The notes under the pieces: model-generated
The model's database searches: none
What the model was told of the DNA's origin: nothing
What the model saw: the letters and a program-made list of their open reading frames with translations, nothing else
From: a virus
Direction: 5' to 3' (one strand)
Virus record (IMG/VR): IMGVR_UViG_3300034120_001596
Coordinates: 1 to 23,852 of that record
DNA: 23,852 bases
Part shown: positions 4,863 through 23,804 of the stretch, in pieces
Layout of the letters: each line of letters begins with the position of its first letter
Position numbering within the stretch: position 1 is the first letter of the stretch
Made by a program: the position numbers and the translations under genes

Positions 4863-4898
4863 TTATACCACAAGTAGTCAAATATTGAAAGTTATATC

Positions 4899-4906: not shown

Positions 4907-4930
4907 CTTACAAACCTTACTCACAGAACA

Positions 4931-7852: not shown

Positions 7853-7861
7853 AATACCTCA

Positions 7862-8322: not shown

Positions 8323-8340
8323 TGTAGTTTGTGATTGTGG

Positions 8341-9782: not shown

Positions 9783-9805
9783 TTTGCCTCATCTATAACA
9801 CTATT

Positions 9806-9880: not shown

Positions 9881-10038
9881 CTATAATACTCCTGAATTTT
9901 ATCCAGAACTTGATTGAGATATTTGTTTGCTAATCTTTTTGGGTCTGATCCATAACCAATCTGTTCTCTATACAACTGATCTTTTAACTTCTCAACATGA
10001 CACCTAATTTCTTCTTTTGAAAATTCGTTTCTAGGCAT
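9877..10038 (-). CDS. Small helical protein, 53 aa
   Basis: The product starts MPRNEFSKEEIRCHVEKLKD and continues QLYREQIGYGSDPKRLANKY, a charged protein predicted to form two helices with one cysteine. The SD-like GGTGGAGAT lies 11-12 bases before the ATG, inside the 3' arm of the hairpin that ends the hli operon. This is probably the first gene of the leftward lysis/nuclease operon. I do not recognise a family. Confidence 0.65.
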   Translation of the reverse strand: MPRNEFSKEEIRCHVEKLKDQLYREQIGYGSDPKRLANKYLNQVLDKIQEYYR

Positions 10039-10043
10039 ATAAT

Positions 10044-10075
10044 AAAAAATCTCCACCCATATTTAGAGTAGAGAT
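10044..10075 (-). terminator. Terminator after the hli genes
   Basis: On the minus strand ATCTCTAC (10075-10068) pairs with GTGGAGAT (10056-10049) through eight pairs including one G-T, with an 11-base loop, then six T. It is weaker than the psbA terminators. The downstream arm contains the GGAG ribosome site of the 53-codon gene, so the hairpin could also limit translation of read-through RNA. Confidence 0.6.
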
Positions 10076-10104
10076 AAGTAGGAATACTTAATTATGTTAG
10101 GGTC

Positions 10105-10212
10105 TCACCACACTCCAGGAATCACTTGCCCAGTCAGTGCATAGGCACCCATAGCAGCCATAATTCCAATCATAGCAAACCAACCATTAATACGTTCTGC
10201 TCGTTCGTTCAT
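10105..10212 (-). CDS. hli: High-light-inducible protein (Hli), minimal 35 aa
   Basis: The 35-residue product (MNERAERINGWFAMIGIMAA, then an Ala/Gly-rich end with TGQVIPGVW) is the core Hli helix: the ERAE..NG..AMIG motif with the chlorophyll-binding Glu and Asn, followed by the TG end. Hli proteins sit in the thylakoid membrane and protect photosystems by binding chlorophyll and carotenoid. AAGGAG lies seven bases before the ATG. It is shorter than typical Hli, having only the core. It is the third gene of the hli operon. Confidence 0.9.
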   Translation of the reverse strand: MNERAERINGWFAMIGIMAAMGAYALTGQVIPGVW

Positions 10213-10223
10213 TGTTTTTCTCC

Positions 10224-10310
10224 TTAGTAAGTTTCAGAAAGTTGATTGACAGAATGTGCAAGAAGCACAAAGAAAGTAATACTAGTAATAGTAAAAATTA
10301 CTTCCCCCAT
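10224..10310 (-). CDS. Membrane peptide between two hli genes, 28 aa
   Basis: The ATG at 10310 shares one base with the stop of the first hli gene (TGATG), and the stop lies just before the ribosome site of the second. The product, starting MGEVIFTITSITFFVLLAHS, is a single span with a short polar end (VNQLSETY). Location inside the hli operon suggests a thylakoid membrane role, perhaps with Hli or the photosystems; that is inference. Confidence 0.6.
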   Translation of the reverse strand: MGEVIFTITSITFFVLLAHSVNQLSETY

Positions 10311-10519
10311 CAGATTACACCAAAAAAGAGGTGTCCAGTTGTCGCATAAGATACAAGTGCAGCAACAAATCCAAGCATAGCAACACGTCCATTCAGTTTT
10401 TCTGCACGTTCGTTATGAGTTTCAAGTGCATAACGTTCTGCATCAGATTGAGACACATACATTTTAGGTTCTTTAGCAAACATATTTTGTTGCCCGAACT
10501 CATTAGTTGTTACAGTCAT
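10310..10519 (-). CDS. hli: High-light-inducible protein (Hli), 69 aa
   Basis: A polar N-terminal region of 35 residues (MTVTTNEFGQQNMFAKEPKM) precedes the Hli helix NERAEKLNGRVAMLGFVAAL, with the conserved Glu, Asn and Arg, ending TTGHLFFGVI. The length matches phage Hli proteins. It would sit in the thylakoid and protect photosystems, in line with psbA carriage. It is first in the operon, behind a consensus-like promoter (TTGACA/TATACT). Confidence 0.95.
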   Translation of the reverse strand: MTVTTNEFGQQNMFAKEPKMYVSQSDAERYALETHNERAEKLNGRVAMLGFVAALVSYATTGHLFFGVI

Positions 10520-10546
10520 TTACGTTTTGTTACGAAACATTACAAA

Positions 10547-10575
10547 AGTATATAGCAAAAAGAAAGGGGTGTCAA
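10547..10575 (-). promoter_or_regulatory. hli operon promoter (sigma70-like)
   Basis: TTGACA (10575-10570) and TATACT (10552-10547) are 17 bases apart. The -35 box starts inside the loop of the preceding terminator. The string TGCTTGACACC also surrounds the -35 of the psbA promoter. Transcription would start near 10540, about 20 bases before the hli ATG. Confidence 0.8.
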
Positions 10576-10581
10576 GCACCC
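10557..10581 (-). terminator. Probable terminator of the glycan operon
   Basis: On the minus strand GGGTG (10581-10577), loop CTTGA, CACCC (10571-10567) is followed by the T-rich CTTTCTTTTT. It stands eight bases after the stop of the last glycan gene. The stem is only five pairs, so it may leak. It overlaps the hli promoter. Confidence 0.6.
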
Positions 10582-10588
10582 AATTGTA

Positions 10589-11296
10589 TCAATTATCACT
10601 TTTCCTTTCTATCCTATATGCTCTTCCTGCTTCATCGAATCCATCAATTTCGATATATTCCGTTTCTTCATTAATATCATCATTTGGAACTAAACAAAGA
10701 TATGGACCAGGTATTCTATCAGTATTACTGTAATTTCTATGACCAGAAATATGGTAATGTGCGGAAACAATTTGTTTGCCTGGATTTTTTAATTTATATC
10801 CTTGATCTGCCATTAATTTGGCAATTTTATTATCACATCCAGGTTTACCTAAAGTAAATTCCATCTCATCAGTTGTTGTGATTGGAGTCTTAAACAACCA
10901 AACATCTTGAGACGATGAATTGTTAAATGGAGCAATACACCATTCACCATTTTCACAAAATACTTCCCATCTAGTTAAAGCAAGAAAAACTTTATCCAAA
11001 TCAGCATCTTTTACAACTGCAATACTATCATCTAAGATAATATCTGCATTTGCAATTATGCAAATTTGATCTTTTAAATTTTTATTACAAAATTCAAAAA
11101 GATCTTTATAAGTAGGTCTTTCTTCTCTTTGAATTATTTCTATTTTATCTGATTTAAAATTTAATTTAGAATCATCAGAAATGAAAACATATATCTTTTC
11201 AATGTACTCATTTTCCAAATTCTCGTGAATACAAGTAAGATATTCACTATGCCTCTGATAATCAGGGGATCTAAAATATTCTATCAATAAATTCAT
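10589..11296 (-). CDS. Glycosyltransferase-like protein, 235 aa
   Basis: The N-terminal half looks like a GT-A fold: MNLLIEYFRS as first strand, YVFISDD, and ICIIANADIILDD at about 78-90 with an acidic metal-binding motif. Later blocks SQDVWLFK and CDNKIAKLMADQGY resemble the acceptor side of phage and LPS glycosyltransferases. I cannot name a CAZy family. It is the last gene of the glycan operon; its ATG overlaps the epimerase stop (ATGA). Donor and acceptor are unknown. Confidence 0.7.
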   Translation of the reverse strand: MNLLIEYFRSPDYQRHSEYLTCIHENLENEYIEKIYVFISDDSKLNFKSDKIEIIQREERPTYKDLFEFCNKNLKDQICIIANADIILDDSIAVVKDADLDKVFLALTRWEVFCENGEWCIAPFNNSSSQDVWLFKTPITTTDEMEFTLGKPGCDNKIAKLMADQGYKLKNPGKQIVSAHYHISGHRNYSNTDRIPGPYLCLVPNDDINEETEYIEIDGFDEAGRAYRIERKSDN

Positions 11297-12186
11297 TGAG
11301 TTTTAATCCAATCCATTAAATTTACTTGAGGTCTCCATCCAAAAATGGTTCTCAATTTTCCATTATTTGCAAGAGTAATTCGTGATTCTCCAATTCTTGC
11401 TGGAATATTTATTTGTTTATCAGATATAACATTTGCAATTTCATTAATTGAGTAATTCACACCATTACCCACATTATAAAGTTCACCATAATATTCATCA
11501 TCAATATCTTTTGTTGCTGCAAGAATATTTGCTTGAACTACATCAGATACGTGTGTAAAGTCTCTACGTTGTTCCCCATCCCCAACAATAGTAAGAGGTT
11601 CACCATCCTTTCGTTGACGTAAGAAAATACCAATAACTGGAGCATATTGTCCTTTTAAAGGTTGCCTTTCACCATAAACATTAAAATACCTAAAGGAAAT
11701 TGTTTTAAGACCAAATAAGTCATTATACATTTTGCAGAGTTTTTCTCCAGCAACTTTAGATACCGAATATGGATTTAAACAATCATCTCGTTGATTTTCG
11801 TGATTTGGTTTTTCATTAAATCCATAACCAGAAGATGTAGAAGAATAAATCACTTTCTTTACTCCTGCTTCTCTAGCACACTGAAGGACTGTAACAGTAC
11901 CTACACAATTAATACTAACTGTTTCAATAGGACTTAAAATTGCTGGTTGAATCCTTGCCTCAGCAGCAAGATGAAATACATAATCTACACCTTCATACAA
12001 AGGTCGCGTATTTTCATAATCCCGAATATCATACTTATAATTTTTTGCTTTTGTATTCCAATAAAATTGATCATGAACATCGGAAAATTCATTATCAATA
12101 ACAATTACATCATGTCCCAATTCCAATAGTTTATCTACAATATGAGACCCAATAAATCCAGCACCACCAGTTACTAATGATTTCAT
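11293..12186 (-). CDS. NAD-dependent sugar-nucleotide epimerase/dehydratase (SDR)
   Basis: An extended SDR enzyme: GGAGFIG at 7-13 binds NAD, YVFHLAAEA at 69-77, SSTSSGYG at 115-122, and catalytic Tyr140 and Lys144 in YSVSK. RYFNVYGERQ and FTHVSDVV are typical of UDP-glucose/UDP-glucuronate 4-epimerase and related proteins. At 297 residues it is slightly short for the class. The likely reaction is C4 epimerisation of a UDP- or dTDP-sugar, for example UDP-Glc to UDP-Gal, which would feed the UDP-galactopyranose mutase in the same operon; substrate choice is inference. It is preceded by a 36-base gap. Confidence 0.88.
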   Translation of the reverse strand: MKSLVTGGAGFIGSHIVDKLLELGHDVIVIDNEFSDVHDQFYWNTKAKNYKYDIRDYENTRPLYEGVDYVFHLAAEARIQPAILSPIETVSINCVGTVTVLQCAREAGVKKVIYSSTSSGYGFNEKPNHENQRDDCLNPYSVSKVAGEKLCKMYNDLFGLKTISFRYFNVYGERQPLKGQYAPVIGIFLRQRKDGEPLTIVGDGEQRRDFTHVSDVVQANILAATKDIDDEYYGELYNVGNGVNYSINEIANVISDKQINIPARIGESRITLANNGKLRTIFGWRPQVNLMDWIKTQ

Positions 12187-12222
12187 TTTTATACTAAATC
12201 CTCAATTTTAAAAATTAATTTT

Positions 12223-13317
12223 TTATATAATCTCAGAATAAAGATCAATAATTTGTTGTTTTACTTTATCGTAAGAGTATTTTTCAAAATATTTATTCAA
12301 TGTATTTTCACTCATTTCACGATAAAGATCTTTATTATCTTGAATTGATTTAAGTTTATTTGCATAATCTTCAACAGTATATGCCATATAACCACATCCG
12401 TCTATCTGCTCCAAATGCCCCATAGATACAGTTCCTGGGTGTGTAACAATTGGTTTTCCGTGATACATTGCCTCAATTATTGCAACAGAACAAACTTCAC
12501 CATCAATTCTTGCGTGTGCGTATACATCAATTGCACTAAGAAAATTATGAATTAATTCTTGATTTGATGAAAAATCAATAAAGTGTATATTTTTTAAATC
12601 TAATTGCTTTGCCAATTCTCTGTGCTTAGTACTTCCTCCAAGTAAAATAAAATGATTATTGGAATCAGATATCATTGAATATGCATATAGAGAAACTGGA
12701 GAAAAAAGATTTAAATCATCTCTTTGATGAAATCCATAAACAAAAGCATCTTCAGGAATACCAAGTTGTTCCCTAAGATTAGATTTAAATTTTTTAGGAA
12801 CAGAGACTAAATTTGGTATAACAACTGCCTTTTTAATATTACCTCCATTGTTTGCCCATTTATTTGCCTGCCAGTTTGATATTAAAATTGCTTTTACAAT
12901 ATTATCTTTATCTTCTCCCCCATCCCCATGAATGCTATCAACAATTTTTGTTTTGTTAATTAAATTGAAAGGGTATTCTGAATATCCACCCCTAGCAGTT
13001 TGGATTACATCATAATCAGTTTCATTAAAAAGATCCCAAAAATTAGTATTATTCCAAATAAATGGAGAATTGTGACCGTCTTTAGACTCAACATAAACAG
13101 GTATTGTATTAATACCGAATGATTCTACCCATTGTTTACGTTCTTCATCATTGTCTGGGTGAACAAACCAATGATTTAAAAAGGGTGCTGCATTAGTATA
13201 ATAATAATCAACAACATAATCATCTTGTTGAGATAGAATCATCGCAATGTTTTGCAATGATTTTTCAGTTCCTCCTGATGCCAATCCAGCAAATTTAATA
13301 CAAGCTATTTTTTTCAT
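12223..13317 (-). CDS. GT4-type glycosyltransferase (GT-B fold)
   Basis: The 364-residue protein has the two-domain GT-B plan. The N-terminal domain starts KKIACIKFAGLASGGTEKSL with the glycine-rich loop; SIHGDGGEDKDN follows near 128-139. The C-terminal domain has YGFHQRDDLNLF, then ILLGGS, and the donor-binding EX7E motif at Glu274 and Glu282, followed by AMYHGKPIVTHPG. These are signs of a retaining GT4-like enzyme using a nucleotide sugar. Its start overlaps the FkbM gene stop (ATGA). Confidence 0.85.
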   Translation of the reverse strand: MKKIACIKFAGLASGGTEKSLQNIAMILSQQDDYVVDYYYTNAAPFLNHWFVHPDNDEERKQWVESFGINTIPVYVESKDGHNSPFIWNNTNFWDLFNETDYDVIQTARGGYSEYPFNLINKTKIVDSIHGDGGEDKDNIVKAILISNWQANKWANNGGNIKKAVVIPNLVSVPKKFKSNLREQLGIPEDAFVYGFHQRDDLNLFSPVSLYAYSMISDSNNHFILLGGSTKHRELAKQLDLKNIHFIDFSSNQELIHNFLSAIDVYAHARIDGEVCSVAIIEAMYHGKPIVTHPGTVSMGHLEQIDGCGYMAYTVEDYANKLKSIQDNKDLYREMSENTLNKYFEKYSYDKVKQQIIDLYSEII

Positions 13318-13961
13318 ATATCATTCTTTTTAAAAAGTATGTCATTAACTCCAAGTTCATCATCCATTTCTATGGAATATCCCTTTGATATCATATAGTC
13401 TATTATAACTTTTCTTCTATGATCCCAACTGGCAGTTTCTATAAGAAAATAAGTAGGTGAAACCTTTTCAAAAGTCAATCCATTAAGTGCAGATATTTCA
13501 TATCCTTCTACATCTAAGGAAAACAAATCAATATGGTTTATTTTATGTTTTTCCAAAAGTTCATCAATTGTTTTTGCGGGGACCTCTGTTAAATCATTTG
13601 CAATCAAATCTTTATGTTCTTTTAAAATTTCATCACACCAATCTCCAGAATCATAAACCATTGCAGTCAATGACTCTGCATATCCAGTATGATTAAAATT
13701 GCCAGTAATAGTTTTTTTATCATAATTATGACTAACTAAAGCACAATTTTCCACTATAGAATTTTTTCTATGTGCTTTACATTCAAGATATTTTTTAAAA
13801 TTAGGTTCTACCAATAAACCTTTCCATCCATACTCAAATTCATATAAAGCAGTATTTGATTGGGAAATCCCATCATTTGCTCCTGCCTCAACAAAAAATC
13901 CATTTTCAAAATTTAAAATCTTTAAAATTTTTTCATCCAAATTATGCAATCCGTAAGACAT
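13314..13961 (-). CDS. FkbM-family SAM-dependent methyltransferase
   Basis: The 215-residue protein shows FkbM motifs: FFVEAGANDGISQSNT at 22-37 for SAM binding, WKGLLVEP at 46-53, and IDLFSLDVEGYEISALNG near 143-160. Enzymes of this family O-methylate sugar hydroxyls in LPS, capsules and natural products. In this operon it probably caps or decorates a sugar in the glycan, which can also block receptor recognition. The length is typical. Confidence 0.9.
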   Translation of the reverse strand: MSYGLHNLDEKILKILNFENGFFVEAGANDGISQSNTALYEFEYGWKGLLVEPNFKKYLECKAHRKNSIVENCALVSHNYDKKTITGNFNHTGYAESLTAMVYDSGDWCDEILKEHKDLIANDLTEVPAKTIDELLEKHKINHIDLFSLDVEGYEISALNGLTFEKVSPTYFLIETASWDHRRKVIIDYMISKGYSIEMDDELGVNDILFKKNDI

Positions 13962-13965
13962 TTAA

Positions 13966-14679
13966 TTACCTCAAAGTTGAATTATAATCACCACTTTTAG
14001 ATCCCTGATAAAACAGTGATGGGAGTGACCAGTACACATTCATATTTAACTTATAAAATTGATATGCCAATTCCCAATCACTTACAAGTTGAAAAGGAAT
14101 AATTGACTCATAGATTTTTTTCGCAGTATCTTTTTTTATTAAATATGCTTCCGCACAATTAGTAGAAGGGGGAGGAACATAAAATAAATTATCACTAATT
14201 TGTTTTAAATTATCAATTTTGGAAGAAATAAAATCATACCCACAACCTTGACCCAAAAAAATTGCATCCCAATCTTTTGGTGCTTGTTCAATTATTAAAT
14301 CTATTTTATCAAAAGGATTTTCAAATGAAGGCAAAATATCATCTTCAACCACTAAACAAAAATCATCTTCCTGTTCTGAAACTTTTTTTAAAGCACAAAT
14401 ATGCTTAATAGTACAAGAAATTTCAGCATCATTTAAAACTCTAAACCAATTTTCTCTCAAATCCCATTCAGGAGGATTAAAAGCAGTTTCAATTTTATGC
14501 TCAAACATATCTTTGTCTGCTTTATAAAATTGGTCTACAATTTCTTTAGTAAAGTCATCTTTATCATATTCTTCAATAAATTCATATTGAATAGGAATAT
14601 TTTTAAAAATTTCTAAAACTTTTTTTCTTCTTTCTTTTAATCTAGTGTAATGAATTACAAAAACTTTGTTTAATTTCAT
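13966..14679 (-). CDS. GT25-family glycosyltransferase
   Basis: The N-terminus KVFVIHYTRLKERRKKVLEI is the family opening (strand, then a hydroxyl-rich turn and Arg-rich helix). ISCTIKHICALKKVSEQEDD precedes the acidic motif VVEDD at 110-114, the metal site. The 237-residue length fits LPS GT25 enzymes, often beta-galactosyltransferases. Four bases separate it from the glf gene and four from FkbM. Acceptor unknown. Confidence 0.88.
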   Translation of the reverse strand: MKLNKVFVIHYTRLKERRKKVLEIFKNIPIQYEFIEEYDKDDFTKEIVDQFYKADKDMFEHKIETAFNPPEWDLRENWFRVLNDAEISCTIKHICALKKVSEQEDDFCLVVEDDILPSFENPFDKIDLIIEQAPKDWDAIFLGQGCGYDFISSKIDNLKQISDNLFYVPPPSTNCAEAYLIKKDTAKKIYESIIPFQLVSDWELAYQFYKLNMNVYWSLPSLFYQGSKSGDYNSTLR

Positions 14680-14682
14680 ACT

Positions 14683-15771
14683 CTATTTTATACTTGTTTT
14701 AAATTTATTAAAGGCAGATTCAATTACTACGTGCATATCCATATATTTGTATTCAGATAGTCTACCCCCAAATACAAAATTTTTCAAGGTTTTGCTTTTT
14801 TCCTGATATTTTTTGTATATAGATTGATTAAATTCATCATTTATTGGATAATACGGAACAAGTCCCTCTTCATATTTTTTTGAATATTCCTTTGTAATTA
14901 TTGTTTTATTAGTATCTGTTTTTTCAAAATGTTTATGTTCAACTATCCTAGTCCACTTTTTAATATTGCAAGTATAATTCAATTGGGAAACTCCCTGATA
15001 ATTATCAACATTTAGAATTTCAGTATCAAATTTTAAAGATCTATATTCAAGTTTACCAAATTCATAATCAAAAAATTCATCTATACATCCAGTATAAATT
15101 ACAGTATTTGCTAAAGAATTATAATATTCTCTATCCGAAAAGTAATCACAATTTAATTTAATGGGAATGCCATCCAAAATTTTTTCAAACATTTTAGTAT
15201 ATCCCCCTATAGGAATTCCTTGATACCTATCATTAAAATAATTATTATCAAATGTAAACCTTAAAGGAAGTCTTTTAATAATAAAAGAAGGAAGTTCAGT
15301 GGCAGGTCTTCCCCATTGTTTTTCGGTATATCCTTTAATTAAAATTTCATAGATATCTTTACCGACAAGAGACAATGCTTGTTCCTCAAGATTTGTAGGA
15401 AAATCTTTAAATTTTTGAGAATCTATAATTAACTTTGCATGTTGAGGATTTGCAGTATTCCACAATTCATAAAATGTATTCATATTAAATGGCAAAGAAT
15501 ATATTTTATTCTTATACCAAGCTTTTGGGGAATGAATATAATTATTAAATTCAGCAAATCTATTTACAAAATCCCAAACTATTTTATTGCTTGTATGGAA
15601 AATATGAGGTCCATACTTATGGACGTTAATTCCTTCTACATTTTCCGTATAGCAATTCCCTGCAATATGATTTCTTTTATCTACAATAATACAAGACTTT
15701 CCTACATCAGTAGCAAGTCTTGCAAAAGTTGCTCCAAATAAACCGCATCCAACAATTAAGTAATCATACAT
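14683..15771 (-). CDS. glf: UDP-galactopyranose mutase
   Basis: The 362-residue flavoenzyme shows GCGLFGATFARL at 8-19 (FAD fold), VDKRNHIAGNCY at 30-41, HKYGPHIFHT at 51-60, YTEKQWG and GIPIGGYTKMF. It converts UDP-galactopyranose to UDP-galactofuranose through an FAD-linked intermediate. This implies that the glycan contains Galf, a sugar common in bacterial LPS and capsules. Length and motifs are complete. It sits between the DUF3431-like gene and the GT25 gene, either of which could use its product. Confidence 0.95.
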   Translation of the reverse strand: MYDYLIVGCGLFGATFARLATDVGKSCIIVDKRNHIAGNCYTENVEGINVHKYGPHIFHTSNKIVWDFVNRFAEFNNYIHSPKAWYKNKIYSLPFNMNTFYELWNTANPQHAKLIIDSQKFKDFPTNLEEQALSLVGKDIYEILIKGYTEKQWGRPATELPSFIIKRLPLRFTFDNNYFNDRYQGIPIGGYTKMFEKILDGIPIKLNCDYFSDREYYNSLANTVIYTGCIDEFFDYEFGKLEYRSLKFDTEILNVDNYQGVSQLNYTCNIKKWTRIVEHKHFEKTDTNKTIITKEYSKKYEEGLVPYYPINDEFNQSIYKKYQEKSKTLKNFVFGGRLSEYKYMDMHVVIESAFNKFKTSIK

Positions 15772-15777
15772 AAATTA

Positions 15778-16419
15778 TCAATAATTCCAATTATTTTCAG
15801 TAAAAATATAAGCCCACATTCTTTCTAAGAAATGTGCCTCTTCTGGATTATGATGATTAGGAAAAGACTCCAAAAGTCTTTGATAAAAATCTTTTGTTCT
15901 AGATAAAATAAAATCCTTTCTAACCCCAAAGCATCCACACCAACAAACAGGAGTTATTTGTGGTATTTTATTAAAATGATTTTGCACATAATCTTTAAAT
16001 TTGATTTCACTTAATTTCAAAAATCCACTTTCAACCTGAGATTTATATCTTGGATCGGAAAGAAAGTCAATATCATTCCATAAAGTTTCATTAAAAAATC
16101 CAATATTACTAGCAGAAAATCCATTATTTTCAATTTCAACAACATATTGCATTAAGTTTTTAAAAACATTAATACCAATATCTTTTATATCACCTTGAAG
16201 AAATATTGTTCCATCATATAAAGAATCATAATTTTCTACAATATGATGAAGATATGTTTGAGATTCTCTCCCATAATTTGGCAATTCAACTACTGTATAG
16301 TTATTATTATCTATTTTTTCTCCTTTATTATAGACAATAATGTCAAACTCATCTTTCCATTTCATTAACCAATCTAAATTTTCACCATATCTTGATATGA
16401 CTAATTGATTTTTATTCAT
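15778..16419 (-). CDS. DUF3431-like protein, probable glycosyltransferase
   Basis: Motifs seen: NQLVISRYGENLDWLMKW at 4-21, ELPNYGRESQTYLHHIVENY near 45-64, TIFLQGDIKD, and CWCGCFGVRKDFILSR. These recall the DUF3431 family, found in sugar-transfer clusters of bacteria and fungi and often predicted to be glycosyltransferases. It has no DxD motif, so catalysis is unproven. It lies six bases upstream of glf in transcription order. Confidence 0.78.
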   Translation of the reverse strand: MNKNQLVISRYGENLDWLMKWKDEFDIIVYNKGEKIDNNNYTVVELPNYGRESQTYLHHIVENYDSLYDGTIFLQGDIKDIGINVFKNLMQYVVEIENNGFSASNIGFFNETLWNDIDFLSDPRYKSQVESGFLKLSEIKFKDYVQNHFNKIPQITPVCWCGCFGVRKDFILSRTKDFYQRLLESFPNHHNPEEAHFLERMWAYIFTENNWNY

Positions 16420-16423
16420 TTAA

Positions 16424-16945
16424 TTATAATTTAACCAAATGAGTAGAACAATAAGATTCAATATATTCAATTGATCCTGTTTTTTTAATATCATTAATTA
16501 GTTTCTCAATTTCTGTGCAGAAATTTTTATCCCCCATATAATGATTCATATCATCTATCATAATTACACTATCATTAAATTTTTCCGAATATTTTTGTAT
16601 AGCATTAATTTCTTTCGGTAAATAAACATTCATCAATTCACCAATATAATCTCCACCAGACCAATGAGCATCTAACCACAAAACAAAAGGATCATTAATA
16701 CTCTCTAATACTTTTGGAAGTTCTTCTTCAGAACTTCCACAAATTAAATGGACATTTTTTTTATCTTTAAATCTTTCTTTACATTTTTCAAAAAGATTTG
16801 GATTCAACTCAATACTATAAATTTCTTCAAACCCAGCATTTAGAGCACATTCAACTCCATCTCCATCTGCGGTTCCCGTTTCAATAAAAATTTTCCTATC
16901 TCCTCTACGTTCAATAAGTTCAGAAGCATTTGGATTTAATGGCAT
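16424..16945 (-). CDS. SAM-dependent methyltransferase-like protein, 173 aa
   Basis: A Rossmann-type SAM-binding start is visible in IFIETGTADGDGVECAL at 19-35 and IYSIELNPNLFEKCKERF. VLWLDAHWSGGDY and VIMIDDMNHY follow as strand-end motifs. It resembles class I methyltransferases seen in sugar-modification clusters. At 173 residues it is short, near the minimal fold. AGGAG precedes the ATG. The methyl acceptor is probably a sugar hydroxyl, by context. Confidence 0.75.
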   Translation of the reverse strand: MPLNPNASELIERRGDRKIFIETGTADGDGVECALNAGFEEIYSIELNPNLFEKCKERFKDKKNVHLICGSSEEELPKVLESINDPFVLWLDAHWSGGDYIGELMNVYLPKEINAIQKYSEKFNDSVIMIDDMNHYMGDKNFCTEIEKLINDIKKTGSIEYIESYCSTHLVKL

Positions 16946-16954
16946 TTTTTTCTC

Positions 16955-17875
16955 CTATTTTAAGATTTTTTCTTTAATAAAGTTAATAACATTTTTTGGT
17001 TTTGCAAACTCTGGTATTTTATTATCTTTAAACCAAGGTTGACTAATTATTTTAGCATACAAATCATAATTTGTATCTATTTCCATAATTTTATCTACAA
17101 CAATTTCATCATCCTCATACTGGTGCCAGTTTATAAATGATTCTTCATTAAAATCACCAACAACAGCATTTGAACCCCAATAAATTGGAATACAATTTGC
17201 AAACATAGAATGAATTATTTTTTCACTAACATACCCATAATCTGGGCAATTTTCCATACTAATGTTAAATTTAAAATTTTTCAAATAATCAATTTTCCAT
17301 CTTTGATCACCACGACCAATTATATTTCCATTAGTATTATTATACATTCTCCCAGCACAATGAACAAATTGTTTAAGATGTAATTTTGGAACAAACTCTA
17401 CTCTTTTACCAAAAGGTTGTGTATTAACAAAAGAACAAAATGCTTGTTTTTGTGATAGAATTTTTTCTGGATCTTTTGGTGCTAAAAATTCTTCCAATGA
17501 ATGAAGATACGATTGATCTCTATTATCATCATGAGGAACATTAAACCAATTAAGATGAAGGATCCAAAGAGGAAGTCTATAATTTCTTTCATCTCCAGTA
17601 TCCTCATACCCAAAAGAAAAATGAGTTTCATTATAATTGGGTCTATGAATATGAGGTGGTTCTGCTGTAAAATAAACTTTTTTTGTTATACCGTTATCAT
17701 AACGAAGATGTCCTTTTTGGTTATGATAATCTACACTATGAAATAAAATATCTGGTCTATTTTCTTCAATTACAACTTCATATTCTTGACTCAATAGATG
17801 ATAAAAATAATTATCGGTTTTAATAAAATTTGGCCAAAAGTCTACAAAGTCTACTGTCAATTTTTCTTTTTTCAT
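16955..17875 (-). CDS. GT10-family fucosyltransferase
   Basis: The 306-residue protein contains the GT10 donor-binding block FKFNISMENC at 201-210, YVSEKI at 215-220 with Glu218, then CIPIYWGS and DFNEESFINW near 228-250. An N-terminal AEPPHIHRPN is at 71-80. GT10 enzymes transfer L-fucose from GDP-fucose, usually in alpha-1,3 or alpha-1,4 linkage. Gmd and Fcl in the same transcript would supply the donor, so the assignment is consistent. The start overlaps the preceding stop (ATGA). Confidence 0.92.
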   Translation of the reverse strand: MKKEKLTVDFVDFWPNFIKTDNYFYHLLSQEYEVVIEENRPDILFHSVDYHNQKGHLRYDNGITKKVYFTAEPPHIHRPNYNETHFSFGYEDTGDERNYRLPLWILHLNWFNVPHDDNRDQSYLHSLEEFLAPKDPEKILSQKQAFCSFVNTQPFGKRVEFVPKLHLKQFVHCAGRMYNNTNGNIIGRGDQRWKIDYLKNFKFNISMENCPDYGYVSEKIIHSMFANCIPIYWGSNAVVGDFNEESFINWHQYEDDEIVVDKIMEIDTNYDLYAKIISQPWFKDNKIPEFAKPKNVINFIKEKILK

Positions 17876-18627
17876 AAATCAAACCACTCTTTTCTCCATT
17901 GTTGTCCACCAGCAAAATGACGAATAATCACATCTTCTTTTGGTGTTTTATTTATTAAAAATTCACAACTGGATTCCCCCTCAAGTTCAGTAACATTCCA
18001 AGCAGTTGGAAGAACTTCAACATGTTCATAAAGTTCTTCCAATGAATAAACAGTCCATTCATTTTTATCAGAATGCCAACCAAAATCAGACAAATTCCAA
18101 AATGGTTCATCAGAATGTCTTTTAATTCCCGCAAGAGAATACCAAGATGCTTGTTCACGAAATTCATGCCAAAAACTATTCACATACCCAAACCTTTCAT
18201 GTTTAGATACAACATCATTAAGTTCTTTATATCTATCTTCTGAAAGAATATTTGAAATTAATTGTCTAGACCATTCATTAATTTTAATAGAAAAAGATCC
18301 CATACAATGAGTATTTCCAGAATCAATAGAATATGAAAAAGATTTTGTTGTTTCATATGGAATATCTATTTTTGCAACGCACATATCAGCATCAAGATGT
18401 GTTACAATATCTCCATCTTTAATATATCCTTCATCAAGCATTTGCTCAAGAACAGTAAATTTTAACCAGGTATAACTTCCACGATACTTGTATAAATTTT
18501 CTTTTAACTCAAGATACTCAAATCCATGCTTATCTGCATATTCTTGATTTCTTGGAGACATATATTCATTGAAAAAATCTTGCCTTTGATCATTATAATC
18601 AGCAAAAACTAGTAATATTTTTTTCAT
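17872..18627 (-). CDS. GT-A glycosyltransferase, 251 aa (GT34-like)
   Basis: From MKKILLVFADYNDQRQDFFN the protein shows a GT-A start, WLKFTVLEQMLDEG, and GDIVTHLDADMC with the DxD motif Asp79/Asp81. FREQASWYSLAG and IIRHFAGGQQW resemble the galactosyl/mannosyltransferase GMA12/MNN10 (GT34) class; the family call is tentative. The start is ATG at 18627, where AAGGA is five bases upstream and the codon overlaps the previous stop (ATGA). An upstream extension to 18678 lies inside the previous gene. Confidence 0.78.
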   Translation of the reverse strand: MKKILLVFADYNDQRQDFFNEYMSPRNQEYADKHGFEYLELKENLYKYRGSYTWLKFTVLEQMLDEGYIKDGDIVTHLDADMCVAKIDIPYETTKSFSYSIDSGNTHCMGSFSIKINEWSRQLISNILSEDRYKELNDVVSKHERFGYVNSFWHEFREQASWYSLAGIKRHSDEPFWNLSDFGWHSDKNEWTVYSLEELYEHVEVLPTAWNVTELEGESSCEFLINKTPKEDVIIRHFAGGQQWRKEWFDL

Positions 18628-19535
18628 TCGTCCTTTCCAGTTAAAACATATTCTACAATATTTTTTGTAGTAAAGCAACCTACCACTTTTTTATATCCAT
18701 TTTCTGCTATACGATTTCTTTCCTGATCATTATTTAAATAAAATTGTATCTTTTCAAGTGCTTCTTCCTTCGTAGAATATAATACAATTTCCTCATCTTC
18801 AATAAACATATCTTCTAATTGTTTATTTGAATTAAGTCTATCAGTAATTACCAATTTTTTACAAGACATTCCTTCAAAAATACGTCGAGTAACTTCACCA
18901 TATCTTGCTTTTTGAAAAACTATTTTTCCATTTCTATAAAGATCTCCATTTTCAATATCTTTTAAATTATTTTTAAGATAAAAAGAAGATCCAAGTTTTT
19001 CTTGAAGATACTTAACAACTTCACCTCTGTCTCCATACATTGTTGTAACAACATCAAATGGTTCATAATTAGTAAAAGATGGATAGTAAATATTCAAATC
19101 TGTCCAATGTGAAGTAAATATAGTGCAATATCCCAAAGATTTATAATGCAAATAACAATCTATATCTGGTGTTAGTATAAGATCCGCATTTTTAGTTCTT
19201 TTTTGATTGTAATGAAATGTTTGAGGTTCATCTCCACAATCAACAACTAATTTGCTTTTTGGAAAATTATTTTTATCAAACAATTCATCAGGTGCTGGAC
19301 CACAAACTTGCCATAAAATAATATCAGGAATGAATTCACCAGAATCATATTGTTTTTTTAATTGATTAAAACCAAATGATTTATCATTACTAGGAGTTGG
19401 ATACCATCTTATTTCTGCGATTCTTTTATCACTAACAAAAGCATCAAATATTCCCCTAGGAGTAGACCAAAATTTTTCTTTTCCGTATTTTTTATATTCA
19501 TCTATAGAATAATCAGATAATAGTGCTATTTTCAT
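18624..19535 (-). CDS. CgeB-like glycosyltransferase, 303 aa
   Basis: The N-terminus (MKIALLSDYSIDEYKKYGKE) leads a GT-B-like fold. PDIILWQVCGPAPDEL, NADLILTPDIDCYLHYKSLG and the C-terminal RRIFEGMSCKKLVITDRL, then EEIVLYSTKEEALEKIQFYL, are typical of the CgeB/Glyco_trans_1_2 group. These act in glycan maturation with unknown specificity. The gene is joined to both neighbours by ATGA overlaps. Confidence 0.8.
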   Translation of the reverse strand: MKIALLSDYSIDEYKKYGKEKFWSTPRGIFDAFVSDKRIAEIRWYPTPSNDKSFGFNQLKKQYDSGEFIPDIILWQVCGPAPDELFDKNNFPKSKLVVDCGDEPQTFHYNQKRTKNADLILTPDIDCYLHYKSLGYCTIFTSHWTDLNIYYPSFTNYEPFDVVTTMYGDRGEVVKYLQEKLGSSFYLKNNLKDIENGDLYRNGKIVFQKARYGEVTRRIFEGMSCKKLVITDRLNSNKQLEDMFIEDEEIVLYSTKEEALEKIQFYLNNDQERNRIAENGYKKVVGCFTTKNIVEYVLTGKDE

Positions 19536-20395
19536 AATCTTTTTATAATGTTTTTAAACATTCCTTCAAGAGAAAAATATTCATCATATACTTTTTTTCC
19601 ATTTTCAAGCAGTCTATTATATTCTACATCATCTATTGATTTAAGTATAGCATCAATATCCTCAATCTCATCTTCATTTACAGGAACACAAAAATCATTC
19701 CAATCCAATTCATCAGTCCAAGGAAGATAATGAATATCTGAAATATAAACAGGGACAGTTCCAAGTTGAAGAATTTCATATAATCTAAAACTACTCTTCC
19801 CATATCCTCTTGGAGCAAGTCCAAATTTACTAGAGCAAGTTATGTCTAGAAATCTTTTAAAGTTGTCTATGGGGACTTCTGTAGACCAGTTGCCAGCAGA
19901 AATTTTATATCCTTCTTTTCCAGATAGATGATTACACATATCTATACGAATTGGATGAGTATTTCTAGAACCAACAAAAGAAGCAAAAATAGTTTTTTCT
20001 TTTTTAGGAATTAATTCTTTTGGAATAGAACTACAAATCAAAGGAATTGGAATAATATTATCTCCTTCACGGTTTCCACCAGCAGAAAAAATTAAAGTAT
20101 CTTCTGGAAATTTTTCAAAAGGTCCATCATCAAATTGAGATACAGTGAAATATTTCCCATCTTTATTCAAAACAGAATTCAATTGTTCTTGAATATTTTG
20201 ATACTGTTGTCCCGCAAACATTGAATTGCAAAAATTATTCGTCCAGAAGACATCAATGTATTGCCTATCAGTTTCAATATTTTCTTCGTTCCACCTCTTA
20301 AAGAAATATTCTTCAAGATACTCTCCAGTATGATATGGAGGATATGTTGGTGAGATAGATGCAGGTCTTAATACATCATTTTTTATAAGTACCAT
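19532..20395 (-). CDS. Exostosin-like glycosyltransferase (GT47)
   Basis: The block KFGLAPRGYGKSSFRLYEIL, then QLGTVPVYISD and LPWTDELDWNDFCV, is the hallmark of the exostosin/GT47 fold and places the nucleotide site in the C-terminal half. KTIFASFVGSRNTHPIR precedes it. The protein has 287 residues and lacks the membrane anchor of eukaryotic exostosins. GGAGG lies close before the ATG, within the last codons of the upstream gene. Donor unknown. Confidence 0.88.
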   Translation of the reverse strand: MVLIKNDVLRPASISPTYPPYHTGEYLEEYFFKRWNEENIETDRQYIDVFWTNNFCNSMFAGQQYQNIQEQLNSVLNKDGKYFTVSQFDDGPFEKFPEDTLIFSAGGNREGDNIIPIPLICSSIPKELIPKKEKTIFASFVGSRNTHPIRIDMCNHLSGKEGYKISAGNWSTEVPIDNFKRFLDITCSSKFGLAPRGYGKSSFRLYEILQLGTVPVYISDIHYLPWTDELDWNDFCVPVNEDEIEDIDAILKSIDDVEYNRLLENGKKVYDEYFSLEGMFKNIIKRL

Positions 20396-21048
20396 AGTTT
20401 TTCCTCCTTAAATCTTCTAGTCTTTTCTTCAACTCCAACCATCCAATTATTGTGAACTATTACAGCATTTTCTTTTTTGCCTTCATTATAATACACATGT
20501 CCGTTTGGGAACAAGTCTGGACTCAATATTGCAATATGGTCTCTATATTTTTTTAGAGCAATCTCATTTACAATCAATTGGTCATCTTCAAATTCATTTG
20601 AACCACATTCATTTACCAAAGATTCACATTCTTTAGTATCATTAAAAACCATAAATCCAGAACAAAGAATAGAACCTGGACTATCTGATTGAAATAAAAC
20701 TTCTTCGTTTTCTTCAATTAATTCGATTGGGTTTTCAACAAATACAATATCAGTATCCACCCAACACAGATTTTTATTTTCTTGATAAATCTTTTTAATA
20801 ATAGACCACTTAATTTTGACAATATTTCTAAAACCACTTTGACTATCAAAAGTCCAATCTTGATATTCTGTAATTGGTTGATCTACATAAAGAAAAGCAT
20901 TTTTATATTCTTTTAGATTTTCATATGCATTAGAATCCAAACAAGCAATATAAAAATCATTCATGTTAATTCCTACCCTTTCAGCAGAAATTAACATATT
21001 TTTACATATATCAATGCATCCACTATTCAGAAATGTAAGAAATTTCAT
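20383..21048 (-). CDS. Nucleotide-diphospho-sugar transferase-like, 221 aa
   Basis: The protein starts [20 protein letters not shown] and has CWVDTDIVFVENP at about 95-107 with the DxD motif Asp98/Asp100, ILCSGFMVFND, and DDQLIVNEIAL. The pattern fits the nucleotide-diphospho-sugar transferase family (PF03407, GT77-like). I take ATG at 21048; a GTG at 21087 would extend deep into fcl. It overlaps fcl by 26 bases. Donor and acceptor cannot be told. Confidence 0.8.
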   Translation of the reverse strand: MKFLTFLNSGCIDICKNMLISAERVGINMNDFYIACLDSNAYENLKEYKNAFLYVDQPITEYQDWTFDSQSGFRNIVKIKWSIIKKIYQENKNLCWVDTDIVFVENPIELIEENEEVLFQSDSPGSILCSGFMVFNDTKECESLVNECGSNEFEDDQLIVNEIALKKYRDHIAILSPDLFPNGHVYYNEGKKENAVIVHNNWMVGVEEKTRRFKEEKLWYL

Positions 21049-21994
21049 TGTTTTTATACCATTTATACGTTTTTTCAATGCCTTCACGGAGACTAATATT
21101 TGGTTTCCATCCTAGTGCTTTGATTTTATCTACATTTAAAACTTTACGAGGAGTACCATTTGGTTTTGTAGTATCCCACTCAATATCACCCATAAAACGA
21201 ACAACATCAGAAATTGTGTGTGCGAGTTCTTTAATTGTTACGTCCTCACCAGTTCCAACATTAATATGTTCTGCCTCATCATAGTTCTGCATACAGACAT
21301 AACATGCCTCTGCTAAATCATCAATGTGTAGAAACTCTCTCATAGCAGAACCATCACCCCAAAGTTTTACGGATCCATACCAAGGACCACCCATATCAAT
21401 TGTATATCCATTCTCCTTCATATAATGAAATTTAGCGATCATAGCAGGAAGAACGTGTGAGGTCTCCAAATCAAAATTGTCATTAGGACCATAGAGATTA
21501 CATGGCATCAAACTAATTGCATTAAATCCATGCTGTTGGCGATATGCTTGGCACATCATAATACCAGCAATTTTTGCAATTGCATAAGCATCATTTGTTG
21601 GTTCCAGAGAACCAGTCATTAACTGATCTTCTGAAATTGGTTGTGTTGCAAACTTAGGATAGATGCAAGATGATCCAAGAAACAGTAGTTTCTTCACACC
21701 AAAATTATAAGATTGTTGAATAAGATTAGTTTGAATTTGAAGATTCTCAGTTAAAAAGTCTGCCTTATAATTGTTATTTGCCATAATTCCACCAACTTTG
21801 GCAGCAGCAATAAAAACATATTCAGGTTCTTCTGAACAAAAATATCTTTCTACTTCTTCTTGATTTGTGAAATCTACATACTGACGAGTGCCTTTAATGA
21901 TATTCGTATAACCTTTACTCTCAAGATTTCGAACGATTGCTGACCCAACCATTCCATTAGCACCAGCAACTAAAATTCTAGAATCATTGTCCAT
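21023..21994 (-). CDS. fcl: GDP-L-fucose synthase
   Basis: The 323-residue enzyme has the NADP loop GANGMVG at 11-17, LGSSCIYPK from 106, and catalytic Tyr137 and Lys141 in [17 protein letters not shown] and [11 protein letters not shown] are family motifs. It performs the 3,5-epimerisation and reduction of GDP-4-keto-6-deoxymannose to GDP-L-fucose. The start is ATG at 21994; a TTG at 22012 would add six residues. It overlaps gmd by 11 bases and works directly after it. Confidence 0.96.
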
Positions 21995-22985
21995 GAATAC
22001 ACATATCCTCAACTAATTGTTCGAAAGAAATCTTAGGTTCCCAACCTAGTTTTTCTTTTGCCTTAGAGGCATCACCTAATAAAGTCTCAACTTCAGTCGG
22101 TCGAAAATATTTAGGATCTACACGAATAATTGGTTTTCTACTAAATTTTTCAACTCCAATTTCATCGAGTCCTTCACCTTCCCATTCAATATGAAGACCA
22201 AAATAAGGACCAGCAGCATTTACAAATTCTTTGACTGAATATTGTTTTCCAGTGGCAATTACAAAATCATCAGGTTCATCTTGCTGAAGCATTAACCACA
22301 TTGCCTCAACAAAGTCTTTTGCGTGTCCCCAATCTCTTTTAGCATTTAAATTACCAAGATATAAACAATCTTGCATACCAACAGAAATACGAGAAAATGC
22401 CTGTGTAATTTTGCGAGTCACAAAAGTTTCTCCTCTTCTTGGTGATTCGTGATTAAACAGAATACCAGTACAAGCATACATTCCATATGCTTCACGATAG
22501 TTTTTGGTTATCCAATATCCATAAACTTTAGCACATCCATAAGGACTGCGTGGATAGAATGGTGTATCCTCTTTCTGTGGAACTTCTTGAACCAATCCAA
22601 ACATTTCTGATGTAGATGCTTGATAGATGCGAACTTTGGTTTCCATTCCAAGCAAACGAACTGCTTCAAGAATACGAAGAGTTCCAAGAGCATCTGTTTG
22701 TCCTGTATACTCAGGCATCTCAAAAGAAACCTTTACATGACTTTGAGCACCAAGATTATAAATTTCATCTGGTTGAACTAACTGAATAACTCTAACAAGA
22801 TTGGTAGAATCAGTCAAATCTCCATAATGTAAATTTAATTTATTGTAAATATGATCGATACGATGAGTATTGATTAAAGAACTGCGTCGAATAATACCAT
22901 GAACTTCATATCCTTTTTCTAATAATAATTCGGCAAGATATGATCCATCTTGACCTGTAATACCAGTAATTAATGCTGTCTTCAT
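21984..22985 (-). CDS. gmd: GDP-mannose 4,6-dehydratase
   Basis: A 333-residue SDR enzyme with [15 protein letters not shown] at 8-22, [13 protein letters not shown] at 77-89, STSEMFG at 124-130, catalytic Tyr149 and Lys153, and [16 protein letters not shown]. It turns GDP-mannose into GDP-4-keto-6-deoxymannose. It is the first gene of the 12.4-kb glycan operon, behind a TTGTAT/TATAAT promoter, with a very short leader and no Shine-Dalgarno site. GDP-mannose must come from the host, since no manC or manB is in the window. Confidence 0.97.
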
Positions 22986-23006
22986 ATTAAAAATAATTTT
23001 TATTTT

Positions 23007-23035
23007 ATTATAGCAAAAAAGGAGAGTCTATACAA
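23007..23035 (-). promoter_or_regulatory. Glycan operon promoter (sigma70-like, extended -10)
   Basis: TTGTAT (23035-23030) and TATAAT (23012-23007) are 17 bases apart. TGC before TATAAT gives an extended -10. The -35 lies in the loop of the preceding terminator and the T-tract of that terminator forms the spacer. Transcription would begin near 23000, about 15 bases before the gmd ATG. Confidence 0.72.
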
Positions 23036-23041
23036 CTCTCC
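23015..23041 (-). terminator. Intrinsic terminator after the tRNA gene
   Basis: On the minus strand GGAGAGT (23041-23035), loop TGTATAG, ACTCTCC (23027-23021) is followed by six T. The stem extends by three A-T pairs. It would end the transcript carrying the antitoxin-like gene and tRNA. Confidence 0.88.
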
Positions 23042-23121
23042 TTTAAGTATTTTACACATTACTTATTTTCTATAGGGTCAGATTTGACTCCACCAGTTCT
23101 GTTATAGTCCATCCGTGACTA

Positions 23122-23193
23122 TGGGAATACTGGGAGTTGAACCCAGACTAACCCGTTATAAGCAGGCCGCTCTAACCATTAAGCTATACTCCC
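23122..23193 (-). tRNA. tRNA with anticodon UAU (Ile, codon AUA)
   Basis: A 72-base cloverleaf folds by hand: acceptor GGGAGTA with TATTCCC (one G-T), D arm GCTT/GAGC, anticodon stem GCCTG/CGGGT with loop CTTATAA, four-base variable loop, T stem CTGGG/CCCAG with loop TTCAACT, discriminator A. No CCA is encoded. The anticodon TAT would read AUA (isoleucine). Most bacteria read AUA with a lysidine-modified CAU tRNA, so a UAU tRNA is unusual and suits an AT-rich phage. The gene lies eight bases after the antitoxin-like gene. Confidence 0.88.
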
Positions 23194-23200
23194 AAAAATT

Positions 23201-23383
23201 TTAACAACCTTCTTCGTGATCTGTATAAATTTGAATCAGGTCTTCAGTTTCTTTATAATCTTTGTATGAAGTTATAATTGCTTTTCTTTTACCATCAACA
23301 ATTCTAAATGTTTCACCATTTTCAACTCTTTCAATAAGTTTATCAAATTTTTTTTGAAATTGCTTTAATGTAAATTCTTTCAT
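23201..23383 (-). CDS. Phd/YefM-like antitoxin, orphan
   Basis: The 60-residue protein starts MKEFTLKQFQKKFDKLIERV, then ENGETFRIVDGKRKAIITSY and KDYKETEDL. This is the Phd/YefM N-terminal DNA-binding pattern (F.k.fd.lie.ve.Ge...i...gk..ai..s...y.e). Antitoxins of this type bind a toxin through the C-terminus and repress their own operon. The C-terminal part here is short, and no toxin gene follows: a tRNA lies eight bases downstream. It could neutralise a host toxin or act only as a regulator. A palindrome overlaps its promoter. Confidence 0.75.
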   Translation of the reverse strand: MKEFTLKQFQKKFDKLIERVENGETFRIVDGKRKAIITSYKDYKETEDLIQIYTDHEEGC

Positions 23384-23400
23384 TTATTGTCTGAGTGTAA

Positions 23401-23433
23401 GATAAGTTTATCGTATATTGAATGATAAGTCAA
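23401..23433 (-). promoter_or_regulatory. Promoter with overlapping palindrome (candidate operator)
   Basis: TTGACT (23433-23428) and TAAACT (23410-23405) are 17 bases apart on the minus strand. The 12-base inverted repeat GATAAACTTATC (23412-23401) covers the -10 box, and ACTTATC recurs just after the -35. Phd/YefM proteins bind palindromes over their own promoter, so autorepression is plausible. Confidence 0.6.
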
Positions 23434-23436
23434 GAT

Positions 23437-23586
23437 TTATTTGTAATCTCCAAGAAATTTAGCAAAAGGATCTTTTTTAGTTTTTACAATCTCACATGCT
23501 CTAATATAAAACATATTTTTTATATTTCCTGACTTTTCAAATGTTTCTTTAATTTTCACCCAATTATCGTAAGTGTGTTGATCCAT
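23437..23586 (-). CDS. Hypothetical protein, 49 aa
   Basis: From ATG at 23586 the product starts MDQHTYDNWVKIKETFEKSG and continues through YIRACEIVKTKKDP to FAKFLGDYK. It is a charged, helical, soluble protein. An in-frame stop lies just upstream, fixing the start region. The stop is four bases before the -35 of the antitoxin promoter. A TATAAGTA sequence upstream differs in one base from the T4 late box. Function unknown. Confidence 0.62.
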   Translation of the reverse strand: MDQHTYDNWVKIKETFEKSGNIKNMFYIRACEIVKTKKDPFAKFLGDYK

Positions 23587-23648
23587 TTGTTTTGCATCAT
23601 TAGGATACTAATACTTATAAATTTTATTATTTTGAATTATATAAAAAA

Positions 23649-23804
23649 TCAAAACTTATTCAAATGATCTTCCAATCGATGTAATAGTTTTTCCATTTTT
23701 GGCATATCTGGAATTTCTATATTGGACGCATAAAGATATTCATCTAATGCAACTGTAAGCAATTCAATATCACCTTTAGACAGGTTTGGGGATTCCCAAC
23801 TCAT
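23649..23804 (-). CDS. Hypothetical protein, 51 aa
   Basis: The ATG at 23804 overlaps the stop of the upstream partial gene (ATGA). The product starts MSWESPNLSKGDIELLTVAL, then DEYLYASNIEIPDMPKMEKL and LHRLEDHLNKF: a soluble, probably helical protein. The coupling and composition support a real gene. Function unknown. Confidence 0.65.
   Translation of the reverse strand: MSWESPNLSKGDIELLTVALDEYLYASNIEIPDMPKMEKLLHRLEDHLNKF

Follow-up and report, generated by a model that had tools for sequence, protein, structure and literature searches.

What does a virus do with fifteen consecutive sugar genes, and is their combination new? The question is raised by positions 10589-22985 of the IMG/VR virus record IMGVR_UViG_3300034120_001596, a stretch of 23,852 bases that we analysed whole and call the window. 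This interval holds 15 open reading frames (ORFs) of 173-364 amino acids, all on the minus strand and running from 22985 to 10589 (g01 to g15), with intergenic gaps of -65 to +36 bases if each ORF is read from its most upstream start. Its coding share is 99.5%, and its coding strand carries 15 open frames of at least 170 amino acids, compared with none in 200 mononucleotide shuffles. Curated Pfam cut-offs are passed by 12 of the 15 proteins, which are placed as Gmd, Fcl, PF03407, GT47, PF13524, GT10, DUF3431, GLF, GT25, FkbM, Glycos_transf_1, and epimerase; 17872-18627 (g06), 16424-16945 (g08), and 10589-11296 (g15) are without placement. The strand-uniform, 15-gene glycan operon proposed in the initial annotation is thus borne out. 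Comparison with related viruses suggests that it is one allele of a hypervariable glycan island with a fixed place in T4-like (Kyanoviridae-like) cyanophages, between a tRNA and hli/psbA.

We compared 11 islands: that of the window, those of nine IMG/VR contigs, and that of the isolate S-SKS1 (HQ633071). The contigs were chosen for a match to g15 together with a match to gmd (eight contigs) or to g07 (L084/L269). Island ORFs were called only at 100 amino acids or more and were grouped into families by single linkage at 35% identity, with six L269 ORFs upstream of the island left out. The comparison shows conserved ends with a swapped middle. The genes of PF03407, GT47, and g15 are in all 11 islands; gmd, a member of the GT10 family, and an intact epimerase gene are in 10, with a fragment of the epimerase in the eleventh. 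Genes of the fcl family occur in seven of the 11, 36 of the 73 families are limited to a single island, and every called ORF has the same direction. A hli match was found in nine of the 11 stretches. Neither Glf nor a DUF3431 like that of the window occurs in the other ten islands, and PF03275 is in none of the nine contigs. This bookended design, in which the middle is exchanged, is like that of serotype loci and would make the product of one phage comparable with those of its near relatives. Some relatives are very close: record L003 holds a near copy of window positions 7804-20917 (99.95% identity), and L082 is about 97% identical over 11929-21049 and 21909-23852, with most of fcl missing. 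In L084/L269, g03-g06 are 85-92% identical to those of the window, gmd, fcl, and glf are missing at this place, and the tRNA-side flank is partly conserved.

That lipopolysaccharide (LPS) clusters are known in cyanomyoviruses such as P-SSM2 was correctly stated in the initial annotation. The sections of PMC3037559 at hand describe large LPS clusters near hli03 and close to tRNAs in S-SSM7, S-SM2, and P-SSM2, and excerpts of PMC7824862 describe a P-SSM2 cluster of 15 genes, polymorphic between related viruses, with epimerases/dehydratases and several glycosyltransferase families, as in the window. The neighbours are also alike, because the island has a tRNA-Ile (UAU) as left neighbour (23121-23194, minus strand; ARAGORN; Rfam RF00005, 66.9 bits) and is adjoined on the other side by a hli-like gene (10310-10519, minus strand; PF00504, 22.3 bits, exactly at the cut-off of 22.3). 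Unlike the P-SSM2-type cluster, as presented in these excerpts, the 15 genes of the window include no sugar kinases or nucleotidyltransferases. Glf and DUF3431 are unnamed in the accounts of P-SSM2-type clusters, as far as these excerpts go, and the word 'galactopyranose' is absent from the text of PMC7824862 at hand.

The nearest named relative is more informative. S-SKS1 has gmd, fcl, PF03407, GT47, a GT10-family gene, the epimerase, and g15 in the window's order, followed by a hli-like gene; no other named phage has relatives of g03, g04, and g15 (tblastn, E 1e-5). It differs from the window in having no Glf among the matches listed (60 of 88), no DUF3431 match, and mostly different middle genes. 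The frame recurs more loosely elsewhere: in S-SRM01, DSL-LC02, and DSL-LC03, gmd/fcl marks one end and hli, ferredoxin, and psbA mark the other, and the S-SCSM1 island is likewise bounded by gmd/fcl and, opposite, by hli and ferredoxin. These four phages have other annotated fucosyltransferase types and sugar enzymes than the window, and no relatives of g03, g04, or g15 were found in them at the same tblastn threshold; for S-SCSM1, the available part of PMC9602691 reports gmd and fcl together with fucosyltransferases and further transferases. Searching for the gene order, as the initial annotation had advised, recovers the frame in S-SKS1 and in IMG/VR islands, and Glf with the window's kind of DUF3431 in only one of the 11 islands compared, that of the window. 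The kind of system is already known, and what appears to be new is not the frame but the Glf arm, which stands beside DUF3431 and for which no deposited cyanophage is among the matches listed.

Within the frame, the route to fucose had been described as complete, and here it is. The gmd gene (g01, 21984-22985) encodes a predicted GDP-mannose 4,6-dehydratase (PF16363, 516 bits) that passes the NCBI equivalog cut-off (TIGR01472, 562 bits, cut-off 415). The next gene, fcl (g02, ORF limits 21023-22012, with an in-frame ATG at 21994 as the likelier start), falls short of its cut-off (449.4 bits, cut-off 500) though nearly the whole NF047922 model is covered; homology and the place next to gmd point to a GDP-L-fucose synthase. 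Its product contains GSSCIYP, YAIAK, and SHVLPA, which we presume to have catalytic meaning. The GT10 protein, a putative fucosyltransferase (g07, 16955-17875; PF00852, 47.1 bits, cut-off 23.9; PF18025, 44.7 bits, cut-off 27.2), aligns over residues 21-277 with the solved alpha-1,3-fucosyltransferase 2nzw (82 bits). What did not stand is the idea of a fixed route. In 80 gmd-anchored viral loci, fcl lies directly downstream of gmd in 57, within 3.5 kb in seven, and further away in one; it was not found downstream in 12 (four of which have less than 1.4 kb there), and three loci were too short. Most of fcl is deleted from L087, which is about 97% identical to the window and yet has an identical GT10. 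In L086, L087, and L108, gmd and g03 are at most about 80 bases apart, with a short piece of fcl left in L087, and in L096, L101, and L114 a different gene, GT25-like by eye, takes the place of fcl. Since fcl is deleted or substituted in several loci, even the position directly behind gmd is open to replacement. No gene for the supply of GDP-mannose is among the 15 island genes.

The epimerase (g14, 11293-12186; PF01370, 199 bits) had been paired with Glf as a path from UDP-galactose to UDP-galactofuranose, and this pairing is not supported. The protein scores 149.7 bits against the GalE model TIGR01179, short of the cut-off of 262.3, and the gene stands at the right edge of the islands whether Glf is present or not (10 of 11 islands have it intact, one has Glf). 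A relative of g14 occurs in 356 phage records; the best 30 are 53-79% identical, and 27 of these 30 are named cyanophage records. The epimerase thus seems to be a conserved bookend independent of Glf, probably a nucleotide-sugar epimerase/dehydratase.

The galactofuranose (Galf) arm includes glf (g10, 14683-15771), whose product passes the cut-off of TIGR00031 (406.3 bits, cut-off 303.75) and aligns nearly over its full length with the solved mutase 1i8t (472 bits), in support of its earlier identification as UDP-galactopyranose mutase, the enzyme expected to make UDP-Galf. With tblastn, 88 of 50,697 phage records match Glf. No cyanophage is among the matches listed (60 of 88); judging from the tally by organism, one record could still come from an organism outside that list. 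The Glf proteins of Streptococcus phages are 55% identical to that of the window, those of Rhizobium/Agrobacterium phages 42-46%, and those of Aeromonas phages about 35%; these phages have other hosts, and the phage collection contains no match to DUF3431. A UDP-galactopyranose mutase is also noted in the actinophage DSL-LC01 (PMC10611076, in the part available). In IMG/VR, 360 stretches match Glf, and 80 of them make up our Glf-anchored set, where gmd (at least 50% identity) is also present in 12 loci, some of them near-duplicates. The suggestion that the combination may be new thus has to be narrowed: gmd and Glf do occur together elsewhere, and the listed matches hold no cyanophage Glf.

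The gene before glf, g09 (15778-16419), was rightly recognised as DUF3431-like (PF11913, 59.1 bits, cut-off 25). A single-query search of the phage collection gave no DUF3431 match at E 1e-3. Among 50 DUF3431 loci of IMG/VR, Glf is in the stretch for 32 and abuts or overlaps DUF3431 in 25; after collapsing at 70% identity, Glf is in 16 of 27 clusters, abutting in 13, and 3 of the 11 clusters without Glf lie near a contig end. This share is inflated, because the alignment used to find the DUF3431 loci was built from Glf-anchored loci. The gmd-anchored set, which is free of any choice based on Glf, has shorter loci (median 12.5 kb vs 17.8 kb). Its 80 loci include two with both Glf and DUF3431, one with Glf alone, one with DUF3431 alone, and 76 with neither. 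Glf is therefore in two of the three loci with DUF3431 and in one of the 77 without it (Fisher p 0.0028), and in three of the 80 overall, the same three being among the 44 loci of at least 12 kb.

The association takes several forms. DUF3431 lies before Glf, after it, or on both sides, with Glf on the opposite strand in L196; a second DUF3431 directly follows glf in L004, L006, and L007. In L006 (8566-10005 and 11077-11787) and L033 (8563-10005), DUF3431 is the second half of a longer ORF directly before glf, the first half of which contains LDHDMF and is GT-A-like by eye. A tree of 47 DUF3431 rows contains 22 that abut Glf, six that are near it, 12 with none in the stretch, and seven that are cut short; the abutting label changes 10 times, compared with a mean of 15.9 after shuffling, and abutting copies are spread over several clades. 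Neighbours of DUF3431 in loci without Glf are mostly other sugar or transferase genes (by eye). Outside viruses, a pattern scan of bacterial genome contigs gave two DUF3431 loci, and a family search found it in three of 392 genomes of one phylum (planctomycetes) and in none of 398 of a second, where the controls were silent as well. Glf is absent from all three planctomycete genomes, which counts against a strict rule linking DUF3431 to Galf.

Structural models point to a class of fold for DUF3431. The g09 model (pLDDT 82.3) has its best Z-score, 10.3, with mannosylglycerate synthase (rmsd 3.5, 161 aligned), and other GT-A enzymes, as well as GlmU-type nucleotidyltransferases, exceed Z 9. Foldseek ranks a nucleotidyltransferase first, and the 50 matches listed have TM-scores of 0.23-0.46; our claim is therefore limited to the fold class. 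The galactofuranosyltransferase GlfT2, which has a GT-A fold, is at rank 16 (E 1.5e-3), with only 99 aligned columns, a TM-score of 0.27, nucleotidyltransferases ranking higher, and no sequence match. The DUF3431 profile had a single match among PDB sequences (E 0.52). No function for DUF3431 was found in the literature, where the three papers naming it, as far as their text is available, all concern Aspergillus. We tentatively propose, as a possibility that we consider less probable than its opposite, that DUF3431 is a GT-A glycosyltransferase family with a galactofuranosyl-transferring phage branch, that it travels with Glf from one phage glycan island to another as a two-gene module, and that these cyanophages thereby put Galf together with fucose on the surface of their hosts or on their particles. 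Galactofuranosyl transfer by DUF3431 is a guess from its genomic linkage to Glf. The proposal would give DUF3431 both a fold class and a donor sugar.

What would the island do as a whole? The role we find likeliest, with belief and doubt in about equal measure, is that it remodels the surface of the infected cell and so hinders rival phages. Soluble Gmd and Fcl would convert GDP-mannose into GDP-L-fucose, and Glf would convert UDP-galactopyranose into UDP-galactofuranose. A cytoplasmic acceptor would then receive fucose, Galf, and sugars of the host one after another from about nine transferases. Fucose would come from GT10 and Galf possibly from DUF3431; the others of the set are GT4, GT25, GT47, CgeB-like, PF03407, and two unassigned GT-A-like proteins. 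One or two methyltransferases may modify the acceptor-bound product. As acceptor we picture a glycolipid or LPS-type molecule of the host that sits on the membrane's inner side and leaves by host export, and the altered surface would hinder rival phages. The activities of Gmd, Fcl, Glf, and the transferases are inferred from homology; the acceptor, the substrate of DUF3431, and the benefit to the phage are guesses. Surface change against rival phages was proposed for cyanophage clusters in PMC7824862 (in the same excerpts).

The choice of acceptor follows from what the island lacks. As the initial annotation held, there is no flippase, polymerase, or exporter: Kyte-Doolittle segments of at least 1.6 are absent from all 15 window genes and from 208 of the 209 genes of the 11 islands. 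With no membrane proteins predicted, the island has none of the flippase, polymerase, or ABC exporter expected of Wzx/Wzy or ABC-type O-antigen systems. The same scan detected the controls psbA (only two segments) and hli (one); among genes of at least 100 amino acids, it would hardly miss a polytopic flippase, polymerase, or exporter, and it might miss a single weak helix. The product must thus use host export or stay inside, and since no gene of the island resembles one for a lipid-carrier enzyme or for these membrane proteins, a host glycolipid or LPS-type molecule is the likeliest acceptor. A weak hint of a link to lipid A comes from a phosphoesterase near psbA (2053-2778; PF00149, calcineurin-like), which shares 86% identity with a gene that in S-SRM01 bears the annotation UDP-2,3-diacylglucosamine diphosphatase; it would provide such a link near the island if LpxH-like, and scores 41 bits against NF003743, far below the cut-off of 134.

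Several observations weigh against surface remodelling. For the late-promoter core ATAAATA there is no enrichment, with 8 occurrences compared with 15.65 expected, and none lies just before gmd. Some relatives lack fcl. Virion proteins are an equally conceivable target for soluble transferases, and the nearest Foldseek matches of g15 are protein O-GalNAc transferases, although a fold does not reveal the substrate. Finally, the measures of selection, which in themselves favour a working island, are coarse. Nei-Gojobori counts against relatives of 45-97.5% amino-acid identity, with dS kept between 0.05 and 2, gave median dN/dS values of 0.12-0.42 for the 15 genes, the largest single pair being 0.518 and all pairs below 1; these values are rough, given the relatedness of the pairs and dS values that in some cases exceed 1. 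The usable pairs range from 1 (g11) to 73 (gmd), with at most four for g05, g07, g08, g09, g11, g12, g13, and g15, and the dS limits removed 12 of 69 pairs for glf and 1 of 74 for gmd.

The main rival is decoration of the virion: a glycan of fucose and Galf would be built on capsid, tail, or fibre proteins and would shield the particles or tune adsorption. Nearly all island proteins look soluble, which fits cytoplasmic protein glycosylation without export, and the resemblance of g15 to protein GalNAc transferases points the same way. However, no virion protein is annotated between gmd and hli in S-SRM01, S-SCSM1, S-SKS1, or DSL-LC02, where many genes are hypothetical, and GT25 is described by Pfam as belonging to LPS biosynthesis. 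We consider decoration possible, and distinctly less probable than a changed cell surface. A changed surface might also protect the infected cell from grazers or other enemies that are not phages. The biochemistry would be identical to that of surface remodelling and protists are mentioned in PMC2984593 (part of the text available); the data do not separate this benefit from superinfection exclusion, and we regard it as unlikely to be the one that counts.

A T4-like scheme, in which phage DNA is glycosylated as a protection from restriction, was suggested for the transferases of DSL-LC02 and DSL-LC03 in the portion of PMC10611076 at hand, and strikes us as very improbable: the transferases far outnumber what a base sugar needs, and, according to the accessible text of PMC2984593, cyanomyoviruses show no evidence of DNA modification or glycosylation. 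PF00303 was found in none of six relatives (several of them fragments), ThyX being present in four of the six. PF00303 is the thymidylate synthase family, to which dCMP hydroxymethylase belongs and whose enzyme would supply hydroxymethylated bases for T4-type DNA glucosylation. Functionless stuffer DNA for headful packaging, a possibility raised for LPS clusters in PMC3037559 (2010; same sections) and in keeping with the varying size and content of the island between phages, is equally hard to credit, because all 15 genes are open and dN/dS is below 1 in every counted pair. The latter argues that cyanophage LPS genes work and are not filler, and thus bears on the question posed in that paper.

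The remaining island genes were less firmly placed, and the list of transferase types in the initial annotation holds in part. Pfam cut-offs are passed by the candidate nucleotide-diphospho-sugar transferase PF03407 (g03, 20383-21048; 61.7 bits, cut-off 22), the exostosin-type GT47 (g04, 19532-20395; PF03016, 72.5 bits, cut-off 33.4), the putative CgeB-like glycosyltransferase g05 (18624-19535; PF13524, 74.7 bits, cut-off 25), GT25 (g11, 13966-14679; PF01755, 42.1 bits, cut-off 24), and the GT4-type g13 (12223-13317; PF00534, 49.5 bits, cut-off 26.4). The GT34 identity of g06 (17872-18627) could not be confirmed, since it has no Pfam family; it may be a GT-A transferase with a DAD motif (D79-A80-D81, invariant in 11 sequences), and its profile found no relative among PDB sequences at E up to 1. 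The claim of two methyltransferase-like proteins survives for FkbM (g12, 13314-13961; PF05050, 62 bits, cut-off 22.7; TIGR01444, 46.7 bits, cut-off 37.7). For g08 (16424-16945) it was not confirmed, as Pfam matches are below cut-off (PF13649, 15.7 bits, cut-off 27); g08 has 33% identity to an S-SCSM1 gene annotated as methyltransferase. The right bookend, g15 (10589-11296), exceeds no Pfam cut-off, matches nothing in PHROG or NCBIfam, and gives no match of its profile to PDB sequences. Its AlphaFold2 model (pLDDT 87.0) has a GT-A fold, with the best Z-score, 13.9, to chondroitin polymerase (171 aligned, rmsd 3.0), and 13.2 to the fucosyltransferase WrtF (186 aligned, rmsd 3.6). Relatives of g15 (30% identical) and of the GT47 g04 (39%) are close together at 331039-333348 of LR756501 (uncultured phage); LR756501 and LR756503 are unannotated records of 735 kb, both with such relatives.

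Signals around the island are few. A terminator-like hairpin at 23018-23044 (minus strand) lies between the tRNA and gmd, on a weak basis because the scan is barely above shuffles, and another (10581-10567) overlaps a sigma-70-like promoter (10575-10547, 11 of 12 positions) before hli, on the minus strand. Terminator-like sites in 9500-23852 number 7, compared with 4.4 (sd 2.2) in shuffles; this is hardly more frequent, so the two end hairpins are named for their place rather than their number. Sigma-70-like sites number 84, with 88.9 expected. Rfam detects no wcaG RNA in the window, unlike S-SCSM1, where one is annotated before gmd; only the tRNA and a PhotoRC-II RNA before psbA (4427-4521, RF01717, 79.1 bits) are over the cut-offs. 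The GC content is 28.5% in the g03-g15 interior, 35.1% in gmd-fcl, 36.6% in the psbA flank, and 28.3% in the short tRNA flank. As the latter is as low as the interior, composition alone does not mark the interior as imported.

The flanks contain psbA, the hli-like gene, a phage lysozyme, a C39-type peptidase, and a nuclease. Their gene order matches DSL-LC02 and DSL-LC03 (lake-metagenome Kyanoviridae), which are the best nucleotide matches for bases 1-10500. Beside the tRNA is a small Phd/YefM antitoxin gene (PF02604, 23201-23383), and several loci have relatives of it on the corresponding side of gmd. Four plus-strand ORFs at 4931-6936 are opposite to psbA; two were tested and have no Pfam family, and DSL-LC02 has four hypothetical genes arranged alike. 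The lysozyme and the peptidase (8341-9012 and 9111-9782) have a similar N-terminal stretch, DLHNFFK.YDE...WLEDNLP, with about 82% DNA identity over 77-78 bases, as though the two lytic enzymes shared a domain.

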